Positions 2,336-9,351 of a stretch of DNA of 64,000 nucleotides are shown one piece after another. The translations under genes and the position numbers were made by a program. Below the pieces are notes generated by a model. It was not told the origin of the DNA. It did no database searches and saw only the letters and a list, made by a program, of their open reading frames with translations. The DNA is taken from positions 62,001 to 126,000 of the forward strand of contig NZ_PSNX01000006.1 in NCBI RefSeq assembly GCF_002930615.1. Direction: 5' to 3'. The DNA is from Caldimonas caldifontis (GTDB lineage: Bacteria; Pseudomonadota; Gammaproteobacteria; Burkholderiales; Burkholderiaceae_C). Position 1 is the first letter of the stretch. Each line of letters begins with the position of its first letter.

Positions 2336-4693
2336 ATGGACCTGCGATCAGACCACGAACACCGCCGACACGCCCACGACCACCCGAGCGCACTGCAGTG
2401 GGCCGAAGGTCTGAAGGACCCTGTCTGCGGCATGGACGTGACCGCGCAGTCCGAGCACCACGTCGAGCACGCAGGCCGACTCTTTTACTTCTGCAGCGCC
2501 AAGTGCCGGGCGAAGTTCGTCGCCGAGCCGGCGCGCTATGCCTACAGCGGCCATGAGCCTTCGTCTGTCGAAGCGCCGGCGCTGGCGGCAGGCACGATCT
2601 ACACCTGCCCCATGCACCCCGAGATCCGGCAGGATCACCCCGGCTATTGTCCGAAGTGCGGCATGGCGCTGGAGCCGGTGCTGCCGGATCTCGAAGGAGA
2701 AGAGAGTCCCGAGCTGCGCGATTTCCAGCGCCGCTTCTGGTGCACCCTGCCGCTGACCGTCATGGTCACTGTGCTTGCCATGTTCGGCCACCAGTTGCAT
2801 TGGTTCGAGGCGCGCACACAGACCTGGATCGAACTCGTTCTGTCCCTGCCCATCGTCCTGTGGGCGGGTCGGCCGTTCTTCGTGCGCGGCTGGCAGTCCG
2901 TGGTCCATCGCAGCCCGAACATGTGGACCCTGATCGGGCTGGGCACCGGGGCGGCGTTCGTCTACAGCGTGGCGGCGACCGTGGCCCCACAACTGTTCCC
3001 GGACTCGTTCGTGTCCATGGGACGGGTCGCGGTGTACTTCGAGGCGGCGGCGGTGATCATTTCCCTGACCCTGCTGGGGCAGGTACTGGAACTCAAGGCG
3101 CGTTCGCAGACCTCGGCCGCCATCAAGTCCTTGCTCGGACTGACCCCCAAGACCGCCCGGCGCCTTCGCGACGATGGCACGGAAGAGGACGTGCCCCTGA
3201 CGCACATCCATGTCGGCGATCGGCTGCGCATTCGACCCGGCGAAAAGGTTCCGGTAGATGGTACGGTAATCGAGGGCAGCAGCGCTGTGGACGAATCGAT
3301 GCTGACGGGGGAGTCCCTGCCCGTGACCAAGCGGGTGGGCGACAAGGTCATCGGTGCGACGCTCAATACCAGTGGCGCGCTCGTCATGGTCGCCGAACGT
3401 GTCGGCTCGGCGACCATGCTGTCCCAGATTGTGCAGATGGTGGCGCAGGCGCAGCGGTCCAAGGCGCCGATGCAGCGCATGGCCGATGTCGTGGCGGGCT
3501 ATTTCGTGGTCGCGACGGTGTCCATCGCCGTGCTGACCTTTTTTGCCTGGGGCCTGTTCGGGCCGGAACCGCGTTGGGTTTTTGGCCTCATCAACGCCGT
3601 GGCTGTGCTGATCATCGCCTGCCCCTGCGCGCTGGGCTTGGCCACGCCCATGTCGATCATGGTGGCGACCGGGCGAGGGGCTACGCAGGGGGTGCTGTTT
3701 CGCGATGCCGCCGCGATCGAGAAAATGCGCCAGGTCGATACCCTGATCGTCGACAAGACCGGCACATTGACCGAGGGCCGGCCGCGCTATCAGACGACGA
3801 TCGCAGCCGAAGGCTTCACCGCCGGCGAAGCCTTGCGACTGGCTGCCAGCCTCGACCAGGGCAGCGAGCACCCGCTGGCGGAAGCCATCGTCACGGCCGC
3901 GCGCGAGCAGGGCCTGGTGCTCTCACGCGCCGAGGAGTTCGACTCGCACTCAGGCATCGGCGTGCGCGGGCGCGTCGATGGACATGCCGTGGCACTGGGC
4001 AACACCGCGCTGATGGAACAGCTCGGTGTGGACGTGCGGCCATTGGCCGAGCGGGCGGAGGCGCTGCGCGGTGAGGGTGCCAGCGTGATGCATCTGGCCG
4101 TCGATGGCGTGCTCGCCGCAGTCCTGGCCGTCGCCGACCCGGTGAAGAAGACCACACCGCAAGCGCTGGCGTCGCTGCGCGCGGAGGGCTTGCGCGTCGT
4201 CATGGCCACGGGCGACGGTCTGACCACGGCCAAGGCCGTGGCGGCGCGCTTGGGCATCGATGAGGTGCATGGCGAGGTCAAGCCCGCCGACAAACTGCAA
4301 CTGGTGGAGCGGCTGCAGCGCGAGGGGCGTATCGTTGCGATGGCTGGTGACGGCATCAATGATGCCCCGGCCTTGGCAAAGGCCGACGTCGGTATCGCCA
4401 TGGGCACCGGCACCGACGTGGCGATGAACAGCGCACAGATCACGCTCGTCAAGGGTGACCTGCGCGGTATTGCGGTGGCGCGCGCCTTGTCAGTGGCCAC
4501 GGTCCGCAACATGAAGCAGAACCTGATGTTCGCCTTTCTCTACAACGCACTGGGCATTCCCATTGCGGCCGGCGTGCTGTATCCGCTCACCGGTTGGCTG
4601 CTTTCACCGTTGATCGCCGCCCTGGCAATGAGTTTCAGCTCCGCATCGGTGATCGGCAATGCGCTGCGTTTGCGCGGCGTCCGTCTTGTCTGA
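2336..4693 (+). CDS. copA: Copper-translocating P1B-type ATPase
   Basis: This 785-residue inner-membrane pump exports Cu(I) (or Ag(I)) at the cost of ATP. In order it has a His-rich start, a YHS-type domain (KDPVCGMDV, residues 27-35), and a heavy-metal-binding zinc-ribbon-like segment (CPMHPEI ... CPKCGM, residues 91-110). The ATPase core follows: actuator TGES, the membrane CPC motif at 429-431, phosphorylated Asp473 in [13 protein letters not shown], and hinge GDGIND near 671. The late helices carry YN and MSFSSAS-type residues, as in copper pumps. A classical N-terminal CxxC HMA domain is absent. The start at 2336 has a GGGAGG box; longer in-frame starts (from 2267) overlap the DUF2933 gene. 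It is the last gene of the copper block. Confidence 0.93.
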
Positions 4694-4869
4694 ACACGAG
4701 GATCGTCGCGCGTGCCGTGGTGGGTGCTGGGCGCACACCCAGATCGCTGGGTCTGTCGTATCGGTTGCCACCCGACGTTGGACACCTGATCCCTATCGAG
4801 GCCTGGAATGCTCTCGACCACGGCACCTGAGCAGGATTGCCCGGGATTGCTCAATCGTTGAGAGAGTGG

Positions 4870-4900
4870 GTTGGATTCCGGTCGCGTCTGCACCACCAGT
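4870..4900 (+). other. tRNA 3'-tail-like sequence in the gap after the copper block
   Basis: The stretch has a GGTTGGATTCC segment resembling a T-arm and ends GTCTGCACCACCA, like the CCA end of a tRNA, just before a strong terminator. I could not fold a complete cloverleaf: the T-stem does not pair and the upstream bases give only a partial acceptor stem. It may be a decayed tRNA end or an integration scar, or chance. Apart from this and the terminator, I see no gene in 4694-5189; the open frames there match no family I know. Confidence 0.25.
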
Positions 4901-4905
4901 TTGGG

Positions 4906-4936
4906 AAGCCCCGTGAGGTTGTGCCTCACGGGGCTT
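4906..4936 (+). terminator. Rho-independent terminator
   Basis: A perfect 13-bp inverted repeat, AAGCCCCGTGAGG and CCTCACGGGGCTT, encloses the 5-base loop TTGTG. It is followed by CTTG rather than a long T-run. It lies about 210 bp beyond the end of the copper ATPase gene, so it could end that operon or a lost RNA gene. Confidence 0.7.
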
Positions 4937-5189
4937 CTTGCATTCGGGCAGACCTTCGTCGTGTCTTGTCTCAGCCACACTCCGCGCTCCCTCTTTCGGG
5001 GGTGTCCCGCGGCAGCATGGAGCCCCATTGCCTTTGCCGGTGCGAACTTTCTGGCAAACCGCACCGACACGGCCCGAGCCCATTGATCTGGCGAAGGGTC
5101 GTGCACCATGGTTCTCGCCTAGACTGGACGCCCGGACGACCGGCTACGGGCCGGCGCCAAAACCAACACCACATTGCTGAAGGGAATCA

Positions 5190-5876
5190 ATGATGCTGTC
5201 TCGTCGACTTGCATTGACGCTGGGTGCTGCCAGCGTTGGCGCGCTCCTCGTGGGGTGCGCAACGGAGAGTTCACGCGCACTGCAGGTGCAGCAGGTGCAA
5301 TCGGCGGCGGCGCCATACGGCGGCCCCCGCACGCCGATCGCCGTGGGGCGTTTTGACAACCGCTCGAGCTACATGCGCGGCGTCTTCTCCGATGGTGTGG
5401 ATCGCCTCGGAGCCCAGGCCAAGACGGCTCTGATTGCTCACCTGCATCAATCACAGCGCTTCGCCGTCCAGGACCGCGACAACCTGGCCGAGACCCAACA
5501 GGAAGCCAGGATTCAAGGGGCTGCGCAAAACCTCAAGGGGGCAGCCTACGTCGTCACGGGCGACATCACGGAGTTCGGGCGCAAGGAAGTGGGGGATCGT
5601 CAATTCTTCGGCGTGCTTGGCCGCGGCAAGGCCCAGATCGCCTATGCGAAGGTCACCCTGAACATCGTCAACAGCGTGACGGCGGAAGTTGTCTTCTCGG
5701 CGCGCGGAGCGGGCGAATACGAGCTGTCCAACCGTGAGGTCCTCGGCTTTGGCGGCACGGCCAGCTACGACGCCACGCTCAACGGCAAAGTCCTGGACCT
5801 CGCGCTGCGGGAGGCCGTGGATCACCTCGTGGCGGGCCGAGATTCGGGCCAGTGGGGCCAGGAGGCCAAGCGATGA
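5190..5876 (+). CDS. CsgG/HfaB-family lipoprotein
   Basis: The product has 228 residues with a lipoprotein signal (LVGC, Cys23) followed by a CsgG/HfaB fold (from about residue 48; PIAVGRFDNRS and DRDNLAETQQEA are typical). CsgG proteins form outer-membrane secretion channels for curli; HfaB helps anchor the holdfast. No curli subunit gene is nearby. It heads a three-gene operon with DUF4810 and GNA1162-type lipoproteins, an arrangement known in Neisseria and other betaproteobacteria and probably forming an envelope assembly. ATGATG at 5190 lies 8 bp after GAAGGGA. The stop overlaps the next start (ATGA). Confidence 0.85.
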   Translation: MMLSRRLALTLGAASVGALLVGCATESSRALQVQQVQSAAAPYGGPRTPIAVGRFDNRSSYMRGVFSDGVDRLGAQAKTALIAHLHQSQRFAVQDRDNLAETQQEARIQGAAQNLKGAAYVVTGDITEFGRKEVGDRQFFGVLGRGKAQIAYAKVTLNIVNSVTAEVVFSARGAGEYELSNREVLGFGGTASYDATLNGKVLDLALREAVDHLVAGRDSGQWGQEAKR

Positions 5877-6265
5877 GAGTCCATGCTCGCACGATGCGTC
5901 GTGCCGTGTGGGTGGCGCTTGTTGTCCTGGCGGGCTGCGCACAGCCACCCAAGCCCCTGTACATGTGGGAGAACTTTCCCCGGCAGCAATACGACGCCTT
6001 GCTCAGGGAGGGGGTCAGCCCGCTGGAGCAGATCTAGGCGATGGAAGCCCATGCCGAGAAGGCGAGAGCGGCGGGCGCTGAACTCCCACCCGGCTTCCGT
6101 GCGCACCTGGGCAAGCTGCACCTCGAGGTGGGCAATGCCGCTGCCGCGCGAGAGATGTGGAACGCCGAGAAGAAGGCTTTCCCGGAAGCGACTCCCTACA
6201 TGGACCACCTGCTCAAGCGGCTTGACGGGTCGGCATCCTCCGAATCGAAGAAGAACTCGACATGA
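5873..6265 (+). pseudogene. DUF4810 lipoprotein interrupted by an in-frame amber codon
   Basis: One reading frame encodes a DUF4810 lipoprotein across 130 codons, but TAG at 6035-6037 (codon 55) splits it. The part before the stop has a signal peptide with lipobox VLAGC (Cys22) and the family's LYMWENF segment. The part after continues without a frame change (EKARAAGAELPPGF, AEKKAFPEATPYMDHLLKRL). In relatives the stop position sits in a polar stretch (EKQIEAME-like), and CAG to TAG is a single transition. The ATG overlaps the CsgG gene's stop, and the frame's end overlaps the next start (6262). It may be a real nonsense mutation, a recoded stop or a sequencing error. Confidence 0.85.
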
Positions 6266-6933
6266 AGCGTTTTGTCTGCCTGACGTCCCTCGTGCTGGGG
6301 GGCGCCTTTCTGGCCGGTTGCGCGACGCCACCGGCCCCCTACGACTACACCGCCTTCCAGCGTGCGAAGCCGGCCTCCCTGCTGGTCATGCCGCCCCTCA
6401 ACGAGTCGCCCGAAGTGAAGGCGTCTCCGGGCGTCTGGTCCCATGCGGCTCGACCGCTCGCCGAAGGCGGCTACTACGTCTTGCCAGTGACTCTGGTGGA
6501 CGAGACGCTGCGCGGCAATGGTATCCAGACGGCAGCCGAGGCCCAGAGCATTCCCTATCCCAAGCTGCGGGAAGTGTTTGGTGCGGATGCGGCCGTCTAC
6601 ATCAAGGTCCATCGGTATGGCACGTCCTACAAGCTCATCGACAGCGAGACGCGCGTGGATGTCGAGGCGAAGATCATCGACCTGAGGGATGGGCAACTCC
6701 TCTGGTCGGGCAGTGCGTTCGCCTCCTCGGCCGAACAGAGCCAACAGGCTCAGGGCGGTCTGGTGGGTCTGCTGGTGACGGCCTTGGTCAAGCAGATCAT
6801 CGGGACGGCCACCGATGCGTCCTACCAGTTCGCGGGCACGGCGCAGGCGAGGCTGTTGGGCGGGCCCCGGTTCAACGGCGTCCTCCCAGGCCCGAGATCT
6901 CCCGCATACGGCAAGCCCATGCCCGCCCAATAG
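6262..6933 (+). CDS. GNA1162-family (DUF799) lipoprotein
   Basis: The product has 223 residues with lipobox LAGC (Cys20) and the GNA1162/DUF799 domain (about 30-200; SLLVMPPLNESPEV near its start, LRDGQLLWSG in the middle). The neisserial homologue is a surface-associated lipoprotein studied as a vaccine candidate. It is translationally coupled to the DUF4810 frame by an ATGA overlap. With CsgG and DUF4810 it probably forms an outer-membrane-linked complex; its substrate is unknown. The C-terminus is Pro/Gly-rich (about 195-223) and probably unstructured. Confidence 0.88.
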   Translation: MKRFVCLTSLVLGGAFLAGCATPPAPYDYTAFQRAKPASLLVMPPLNESPEVKASPGVWSHAARPLAEGGYYVLPVTLVDETLRGNGIQTAAEAQSIPYPKLREVFGADAAVYIKVHRYGTSYKLIDSETRVDVEAKIIDLRDGQLLWSGSAFASSAEQSQQAQGGLVGLLVTALVKQIIGTATDASYQFAGTAQARLLGGPRFNGVLPGPRSPAYGKPMPAQ

Positions 6934-6993
6934 CGGAGCGGCTCGGCGCTGGCCTGCGGTCCAGCGCCGGGGACGGTGGCTGCAAAGACCGGC

Positions 6994-7013
6994 ATACAAT
7001 CTCAGATTTGTAT
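6994..7013 (+). promoter_or_regulatory. Candidate promoter / inverted repeat before yajC
   Basis: ATACAA and TTGTAT form a 6-bp inverted repeat spaced by 8 bases. The left arm contains TACAAT (6995-7000), a good -10-like hexamer about 35 bp upstream of the yajC start. No clear -35 box is seen at the right spacing. It is the only AT-rich patch between the lipoprotein operon and yajC. Confidence 0.35.
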
Positions 7014-7035
7014 TGACCTTTCCCGGAGACTCCCC

Positions 7036-7362
7036 GTGTTCATCTCTGAAGCATTCGCCCAGGCGGCTCCCGCCGCGCAAGGCGGCACCGAATCGACCCT
7101 GCTGAGCCTGCTGCCGCTGGTGCTGATGTTCGTGGTGCTCTACTTCATCATGATCCGCCCCCAGATGAAGCGCCAGAAGGAGCACAAGGCCATGGTCGAG
7201 GCCCTGGCCAAGGGTGATGAGGTCGTGACCGCTGGCGGCCTGCTCGGCAAGATCGCCAAGCTGGGCGAGAGCTATCTGCACGTGGAGGTCGCCGATGGCG
7301 TGGAGATCCAGGTCCAGCGCTCGGCCGTGGTGCAGGTGCTGCCCAAGGGAACGATCAAGTAA
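7036..7362 (+). CDS. yajC: Preprotein translocase subunit YajC
   Basis: The product has 108 residues: a short periplasmic N-terminus (FISEAFAQAAPAAQ), one transmembrane helix (about 24-42, LLSLLPLVLMFVVLYFIMI), then RPQMKRQKEHK and the YajC domain (GDEVVTAGGLLGKIAKL). YajC associates with SecD and SecF at the Sec translocon. The start is taken as GTG 7036 because the family begins M/V-FIS and a CGGAGAC box lies 5 bp upstream; a longer frame from 6976 lacks homology. It is the first gene of yajC-secD-secF. Confidence 0.93.
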   Translation: MFISEAFAQAAPAAQGGTESTLLSLLPLVLMFVVLYFIMIRPQMKRQKEHKAMVEALAKGDEVVTAGGLLGKIAKLGESYLHVEVADGVEIQVQRSAVVQVLPKGTIK

Positions 7363-7399
7363 TCCAGGTCTCTGATCCGGCTGGATGCCGGAGAACCGG

Positions 7400-7422
7400 A
7401 AGGGCGCCGCTGGGGCGCCCTT
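7400..7422 (+). terminator. Hairpin between yajC and secD
   Basis: AAGGGCGCC and GGCGCCCTT form a 9-bp stem with a 5-base loop, followed by CGTTCC rather than a T-run. It may lower read-through into secD or protect the yajC transcript. I regard it as a partial terminator at most. Confidence 0.4.
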
Positions 7423-7476
7423 CGTTCCGCTGAGGCCTCGCCGCCTGGCCGCGGCAATGGGCATGAAAGAGCTGTC

Positions 7477-9351
7477 ATGAACCGCTATCCCCTGTGGAAA
7501 TACGCGATCCTGTTGGTCGCGGTGATCGTGGGCCTGGTCTATACCCTGCCCAATTTCTTCGGCGAGGCGCCGGCGGTGCAGGTCTCCAGCGGCAAGGTCA
7601 CCATCCGCATGGACGAGGCCATGACCGAGCGCGTGCGGCAGGCCCTGGCCGATGGCAATGTGCCGGTGGATTTCGTGCAGTTCGACGGCAATTCGGTGCG
7701 CGCCCGCTTTGCCGACACCGACACCCAGATCCGCGCACGCGACGTGATCGACCGCGCGCTGAACCCGGACCCGGCCGATCCGGGCTACGTCGTGGCCCTC
7801 AACCTCGTGTCGCGGTCACCCCAATGGCTGACCGCCGTGCGCGCGCTGCCCATGTACCTGGGCCTGGACCTGCGCGGCGGCGTGCACTTCCTGATGCAGG
7901 TGGACATGGAGGCGGCCCTCACGCGGCGTGCCGAGGCCTATGTGGGCGACGCGCGCGCGCTGCTGCGCGACCGCAACATCCGCCATGCGGGCATCACCCG
8001 CAACGGCAACAACGTCGAGGTGCGCTTCCGCGAAGCCGCCGTACAACAGCAGGCGCGCGATGTCCTGCGTGACCAGCTGGCCGACCTGGACTGGGTCGAG
8101 TCGGTTGACGGGCTCGACTTCAAGCTCACGGGCACGCTCAAGCCCGAAGCGGCGCGCCGCATCCAGGATCAGGCGCTCAAGCAGAACATCACGACGCTGC
8201 ACAACCGCATCAACGAGCTGGGCACCAGCGAACCGGTGATCCAGCAGCAGGGGCTGGATCGGGTGGTGGTGCAGCTGCCGGGTGTTCAGGACACCGCACG
8301 CGCCAAGGACATCATCGGGCGCACCGCCACGCTGGAGGTTCGCCTGGTGGACGACAGCGCCGAAGCCATGGCGGCGCTGGCCGGCAACGGCCCGGTGCCC
8401 TTCGGCACCGAGCGCTATGTGGAGCGCGGCGGGGCCCCGCTCATCGTGCGCCGCCAGGTCATCCTCACGGGCGAGAACCTCACGGACGCCCAGGCCGGCT
8501 TCGACGACCAGCAGCAGCCGGCCGTGCACCTCACGCTCGACGCCAAGGGCGCGCGCATCTTCCGCGACATCACCCGCGAGAACGTGGGTCGGCGCATGGC
8601 CATCCTGCTGTTCGAGAAGGGACGCGGCGAGGTGGTGACGGCCCCGGTCATCCGCACCGAGATCGGCGGTGGGCGGGTGCAGATCTCCGGTCGCATGACC
8701 ACGCAGGAGGCCAACGACGTCGCCCTGCTGTTGCGCGCCGGCTCGCTGGCCGCGCCGATGGAGATCATCGAGGAGCGCACCATCGGCCCCGCGCTGGGCG
8801 CCGAGAACATCGCCAAGGGCTTCAACAGCGTGATCTGGGGGCTGGCAGCCATCGCCGTCTTCATGATCGCCTACTACAGGCTGTTCGGCGTGTTCTCCAC
8901 TCTGGCGCTCACCCTCAACCTCTTCCTGCTGATGGCCCTGCTGTCGATGCTGCAGGCCACACTCACGCTGCCAGGCATCGCGGCGGTGGCGCTCACGCTG
9001 GGCATGGCCATCGACGCGAACGTGTTGATCAATGAACGCGTGCGCGAGGAGTTGCGCAACGGAGCCTCGCCGCAGGCGGCCATCCATGCCGGCTACGAGC
9101 GGGCCTGGGCCACCATCCTTGACTCCAACGTCACCACGCTGATCGCCGGCGTGGCCTTGCTGGCCTTCGGCTCCGGCCCGGTGCGCGGCTTTGCCGTGGT
9201 GCACTGCCTGGGCATCCTGACGTCGATGTTCTCGGCCGTGCTGTTCTCGCGTGGCCTGGTGAACCTGTGGTACGGACGGCAGAAGAAGCTCAAGTCCGTG
9301 TCCATCGGTCAGGTCTGGACGCCTGGCGGAGAACCCGCCTCCAAGGCCTGA
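7477..9351 (+). CDS. secD: Protein translocase subunit SecD
   Basis: This 624-residue inner-membrane protein uses the proton gradient to finish export through SecYEG. It has an N-terminal helix (about 8-26), a large periplasmic region with P1 and head subdomains (LGLDLRGGVHFLMQVD is the conserved D-box-like start), and five C-terminal helices with SecD hallmarks (GMAIDANVLINERVREEL). The length is normal. It lies 114 bp after yajC and 27 bp before secF. Confidence 0.97.
   Translation: MNRYPLWKYAILLVAVIVGLVYTLPNFFGEAPAVQVSSGKVTIRMDEAMTERVRQALADGNVPVDFVQFDGNSVRARFADTDTQIRARDVIDRALNPDPADPGYVVALNLVSRSPQWLTAVRALPMYLGLDLRGGVHFLMQVDMEAALTRRAEAYVGDARALLRDRNIRHAGITRNGNNVEVRFREAAVQQQARDVLRDQLADLDWVESVDGLDFKLTGTLKPEAARRIQDQALKQNITTLHNRINELGTSEPVIQQQGLDRVVVQLPGVQDTARAKDIIGRTATLEVRLVDDSAEAMAALAGNGPVPFGTERYVERGGAPLIVRRQVILTGENLTDAQAGFDDQQQPAVHLTLDAKGARIFRDITRENVGRRMAILLFEKGRGEVVTAPVIRTEIGGGRVQISGRMTTQEANDVALLLRAGSLAAPMEIIEERTIGPALGAENIAKGFNSVIWGLAAIAVFMIAYYRLFGVFSTLALTLNLFLLMALLSMLQATLTLPGIAAVALTLGMAIDANVLINERVREELRNGASPQAAIHAGYERAWATILDSNVTTLIAGVALLAFGSGPVRGFAVVHCLGILTSMFSAVLFSRGLVNLWYGRQKKLKSVSIGQVWTPGGEPASKA

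Follow-up and report, generated by a model that had tools for sequence, protein, structure and literature searches.

An amber codon within the DUF4810 gene of a CsgG-DUF4810-GNA1162 lipoprotein operon in Caldimonas caldifontis, probably a young nonsense allele

The DUF4810 lipoprotein gene at positions 5873 to 6265 (plus strand) of the window, the 64,000-nucleotide stretch analysed here (contig C30, 62001 to 126000), is split by an in-frame amber codon, as the earlier note had claimed. Sequence and translation agree on a single frame, M...LEQI*AMEAH...KKNST*, which opens with an ATG, a signal peptide and a lipobox (LAGC with Cys22, by eye), continues as DUF4810 and ends at a normal TGA at 6263 to 6265. 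The TAG at 6035 to 6037, residue 55, is the only lesion seen in it. In our view a recent nonsense mutation has probably inactivated the middle gene of a CsgG-DUF4810-GNA1162 lipoprotein operon, leaving a null allele. The best reading is that the young allele is a first step in the loss of a patchily kept lipoprotein trio; an assembly error comes next in likelihood, and readthrough or restart is unlikely. The suggestion that the trio loses its middle subunit therefore agrees with the best reading of the data, with a sequencing or assembly error as the competing account.

The interrupted frame lies between an intact CsgG-like lipoprotein gene, first of the trio (5190 to 5876, plus strand, 228 amino acids; PF03783, 75.4 bits, cut-off 20.8), and an intact GNA1162-like lipoprotein gene (6262 to 6933, plus strand, 223 amino acids; PF05643, 251.7 bits). 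Both flanking genes overlap the DUF4810 frame, each by an ATGA (5873 to 5876 and 6262 to 6265). The three genes are adjacent and in the order CsgG, DUF4810, GNA1162, and the window thus resembles the known CsgG-DUF4810-GNA1162 (DUF799) trio in its families, order and tight spacing but differs in its interrupted middle gene. The window's CsgG is 71 to 79% identical to the CsgG of 13 relatives' loci (L005, L007-L018), and the GNA1162-like protein matches the solved GNA1162 structure, PDB 4hrv, at 5.6e-45. A sequence search of the PDB gave no match for CsgG, and NCBIfam held no model for the trio. In relatives' loci, CsgG was present in 29 of 30 and GNA1162 adjoined DUF4810 in 30 of 30. With start choice being approximate, the nearest possible start overlapped the preceding stop at 45 of 79 CsgG-DUF4810 junctions and 42 of 80 DUF4810-GNA1162 junctions of named loci. 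The three families are also annotated together in a Comamonas odontotermitis plasmid record. The residue after the lipobox cysteine sets the destination of a lipoprotein, and all three trio proteins are predicted to go to the outer membrane because alanine occupies that position in each (by eye).

When X replaced the stop, the whole frame matched PF16068 over profile positions 1 to 85 (73.8 bits, 1.7e-20; cut-off 34.7). The residues after the stop matched by themselves (56.9 bits), and those before it gave no match at 1e-3. The claim that both halves match DUF4810 thus holds for the joined frame and for the alignment to relatives, but not for the first half taken alone. The 5' part (5873 to 6037, plus strand) carries the signal peptide, the lipobox with Cys22 and the first helices and ends at the TAG, so that no single open frame runs from lipobox to C-terminus. 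The amber codon (plus strand) falls within the third predicted helix (residues 50 to 66), and the 3' part continues in the same frame from 6038 to 6265 (plus strand). In 39 aligned sequences Cys22 is invariant, and five of the seven invariant residues lie downstream of the stop. A structure model of the read-through protein built with these 39 sequences is mainly helical (mean pLDDT 84.9) and places the stop inside the helix of residues 50 to 66. Foldseek gave no match for this model at E <= 0.001, the matches in the PDB being weak (best E 0.1). A TPR protein was named in 11 of the 50 matches listed, and several further matches are TPR proteins as well; on the strength of these matches, DUF4810 may be TPR-like.

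If the stop acts as such, the ribosome would halt after 54 codons, and the stub of some 33 residues so released would retain just its lipidated N-terminus and lack the TPR-like helices. The three-lipoprotein complex would then be inactive or impaired. GNA1162 could still be produced, either from its own initiation or through a restart at ATG 6041 and the ATGA coupling. The operon might be heading for loss, as in relatives that lack the trio or hold fragments of it. The ATG three bases past the stop (6041 to 6043), pointed out in the earlier note, is present, and the candidate restart frame translates from 6041 to 6265 (plus strand) into 74 amino acids. A restart there cannot rebuild the lipoprotein because signal peptide and lipobox cysteine are dropped; reinitiation as a rescue is thus unsupported, and at most it could keep the translation of GNA1162 coupled.

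The gene is open in nearly all relatives surveyed. Among 299 family genomes, 40 matched DUF4810 (39 above cut-off, the window's included) and 41 matched GNA1162. None of the 38 other above-cut-off DUF4810 matches had an internal stop, and GNA1162 was present in all 38 of those genomes. Among 369 class genomes there were 12 DUF4810 matches above cut-off, and none of the 11 others had an internal stop; both surveys detect stops and not frameshifts. An alignment of GNA1162 gave 571 named relatives, and in the best 80 of these 571, DUF4810 was found in 80 loci and CsgG in 79. One of the 80 was broken, by a frameshift near the end of the gene in Stutzerimonas stutzeri RM2, where DUF4810 lies at L130:2654-2970 and the neighbours still match. 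Stops inside other matches fall within the last few residues of the match. The TGA codons in five matches were considered as breaks and rejected: in three, inspection of the DNA put the TGA within a few residues of the match's end, and Pfam found all five matches stop-free. The family, class and named-locus sets probably overlap, so their counts are not additive. A split at the site of the window's stop occurred in none of the 30 and 80 relatives' loci. Comparison of the codon in the 23 closest relatives gave sense residues throughout (Q 7, R 6, A 5, L 3, G 1 and P 1). Origin of the stop by a CAG to TAG transition was not established because 16 residue types occur in this column across 98 relatives.

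The trio is patchy within the genus, being found in two of nine species, the window's species included. The neighbouring genes look different (by eye) in the other trio-bearing species (G005), and a genome of the genus without GNA1162 (G002) gave a third, weak DUF4810 match (4.9e-4). GNA1162 without DUF4810 was seen in two family genomes, both times as a fragment. In one (G232, L179:2388-3034), a CsgG fragment directly adjoins a GNA1162 fragment and DUF4810 is gone, apparently a relic left when the trio underwent an internal deletion. In the other (G235, L180:2487-2906), a C-terminal GNA1162 fragment stands in a 5-kb region with no CsgG or DUF4810, another apparent relic. Two further loci, L118 (Pseudorhodoferax sp. 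Leaf267) and L182, have DUF4810 and GNA1162 and no CsgG match in the flank covered. The window's species is represented by one genome, a 3.64-Mb draft, in which the interrupted DUF4810 is the only copy above cut-off. The sole candidate for a second copy was a sub-threshold match of 16.6 bits, and a first scan of the genome contigs with the read-through protein found nothing.

Constraint was measured as departures at columns conserved to 90% or more in close relatives, with rank 1 the most deviant. The window's DUF4810 shows one departure in 40 such columns (rank 15 of 24), GNA1162 one in 79 (rank 20 of 37) and CsgG five in 104 (rank 10 of 96). In wider sets the values were 1 of 18 (rank 19 of 99) for DUF4810, 1 of 64 (rank 73 of 101) for GNA1162 and 5 of 102 (rank 9 of 99) for CsgG, which, though open, is the most deviant of the three. 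Apart from the stop, little in DUF4810 points to a broken gene, and there is no clear relaxation of constraint. The stop is therefore either a recent event, an artefact of the assembly, or one that the cell tolerates by weak readthrough; normal-looking constraint cannot separate a recent mutation from an error or from continued use.

Rescue by a suppressor tRNA, as offered in the earlier note, is unsupported. The tRNA search of the genome found 41 genes, to each of which ARAGORN gave an anticodon on the covering loci, and none of the 41 had the anticodon CTA. tRNA-Ile GAT and tRNA-Ala TGC usually sit in rRNA operons; both are absent from the 41, and the draft assembly may therefore lack some tRNAs. 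Release factor RF1 is present (509.9 bits, cut-off 423.25), and its loss is thus unsupported. We sampled about 399 kb of the genome (the window, the remainder of C30 and eleven 20-kb stretches), in which a crude codon model picked 308 genes. These end in TGA (269), TAG (25) and TAA (14), and the sequence past the stop looks non-coding for all three (median bits per codon -0.68, -0.65 and -0.40, respectively), which gives no support to a general recoding of TAG. GNA1162 itself terminates in TAG (6931 to 6933). The frame stayed coding-like past the stop at 39 places. At 32 of these it ran into a second picked gene of the same orientation, at one into a gene of the opposite strand and at six into none; the six were judged to be separate next genes. 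Only two of the 39 stops are TAG, that of GNA1162, with yajC next in frame, and one in L091. For 20 of the 32 same-direction pairs, the one in L091 included, the read-through frame was searched with Pfam. None of the family stretches listed spanned the stop, and three of the 20 had a match on one side only. No other gene broken by an in-frame stop was recognised among the 308, a control that misses small broken genes and from whose picking the interrupted DUF4810 gene itself escaped.

A lone in-frame stop in a gene with one copy above cut-off, together with the strong tendency of relatives to keep the three genes together and open, supports a null allele. Against it stand the lack of clear relaxed constraint in DUF4810 and the greater deviation of CsgG. 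That the stop is an assembly or base-call error, and that DUF4810 is open in the living strain, is possible, at perhaps one chance in five. Such an error would agree with the missing second lesion and the unrelaxed constraint, with the 16 residue types tolerated in the interrupted column, and with a draft of 33 contigs. Cooley and Wright 2024 (PMC11017572) trace many internal-stop pseudogenes to assembly errors. However, completeness of the genome is rated at 100% and contamination at 0.01, and the sampled genes, although the control is blind to small ones, gave no second case.

The remaining explanations keep the stop as real and the gene in use. In one, which we consider unlikely, basal readthrough lets the gene work at a low level and thereby sets a low dose of DUF4810. 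The normal-looking constraint and the intact flanking genes are in line with this. Belinky et al. 2021 (PMC7918605) contend that bacteria tolerate many in-frame stops, for which they propose basal readthrough. The window resembles their cases in having a TAG within a constrained coding frame. However, its stop is shared with no relative surveyed, no suppressor tRNA was found, RF1 is present, and a very recent mutation equally predicts normal constraint. An elaboration, quite unlikely in our estimate, would make the amber codon a dose-setting element: trace readthrough DUF4810 would suffice, restart at ATG 6041 would couple GNA1162, and the operon would be functional with its middle subunit throttled. 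A split gene, in which restart at ATG 6041 yields a separate functional C-terminal protein, seems very improbable. The ATG lies close behind the stop and the downstream half retains the conserved helical part, but the product, having neither signal peptide nor lipobox, would remain cytoplasmic, apart from its lipobox-bearing partners (by eye). The only sequence resembling a ribosome-binding site is GGAG, 12 bases upstream of that ATG, and relatives show no such split in either set of loci.

Read as a young nonsense allele, the gene resembles other nonsense-mutation pseudogenes: one in-frame stop interrupts a frame that nearly every relative surveyed keeps open, and no suppressor was found. It differs in showing no clear further decay yet and in being known here from one assembly. 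Single-nonsense pseudogenes are common, and a premature stop in DUF4810 is an ordinary event. Alone, it thus carries little weight (see also PMC7918605). As a natural DUF4810 knock-out beside intact partners, it could help to show whether the CsgG-like and GNA1162-like lipoproteins depend on DUF4810. Our literature search found no paper naming DUF4810 and, within the portions of text available, no study on the function of the trio. The meningococcal genes NMB1162-NMB1164 are probably the counterpart of the trio. NEIS1066 is called CsgG-like (PMC11306574) and equated with NMB1126/NMB1164 (PMC10097807).

Several observations concern the surrounding sequence. A scan of 4700 to 7500 found no sigma-70-like promoter site and one terminator-like site, at 5901 to 5918 inside the DUF4810 gene, which is not above shuffled sequence (1 versus 1.6). 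Rfam gave three matches on 4400 to 5400, none at gathering score. A strong inverted repeat at 4902 to 4940, just upstream of the trio, was not called by the terminator scan. On its 5' side, at 4873 to 4898, the sequence resembles the 3' end of a tRNA (...CACCACCA). As an integration site this tRNA-like end was rejected, no copy with <=6 substitutions being found in loci L038-L098 or the window; a 181-base stretch that surrounds it matched nowhere else in the genome except its own hairpin in reverse. The elements at 4873 to 4940 are possibly the end of a copper-gene island on their left. To the left of the window, at about 40001 to 62000 of C30 (L083, L084), lie a macrodomain-like gene and a DarT-looking neighbour (names by eye), followed by a CusS/response-regulator pair (Pfam).
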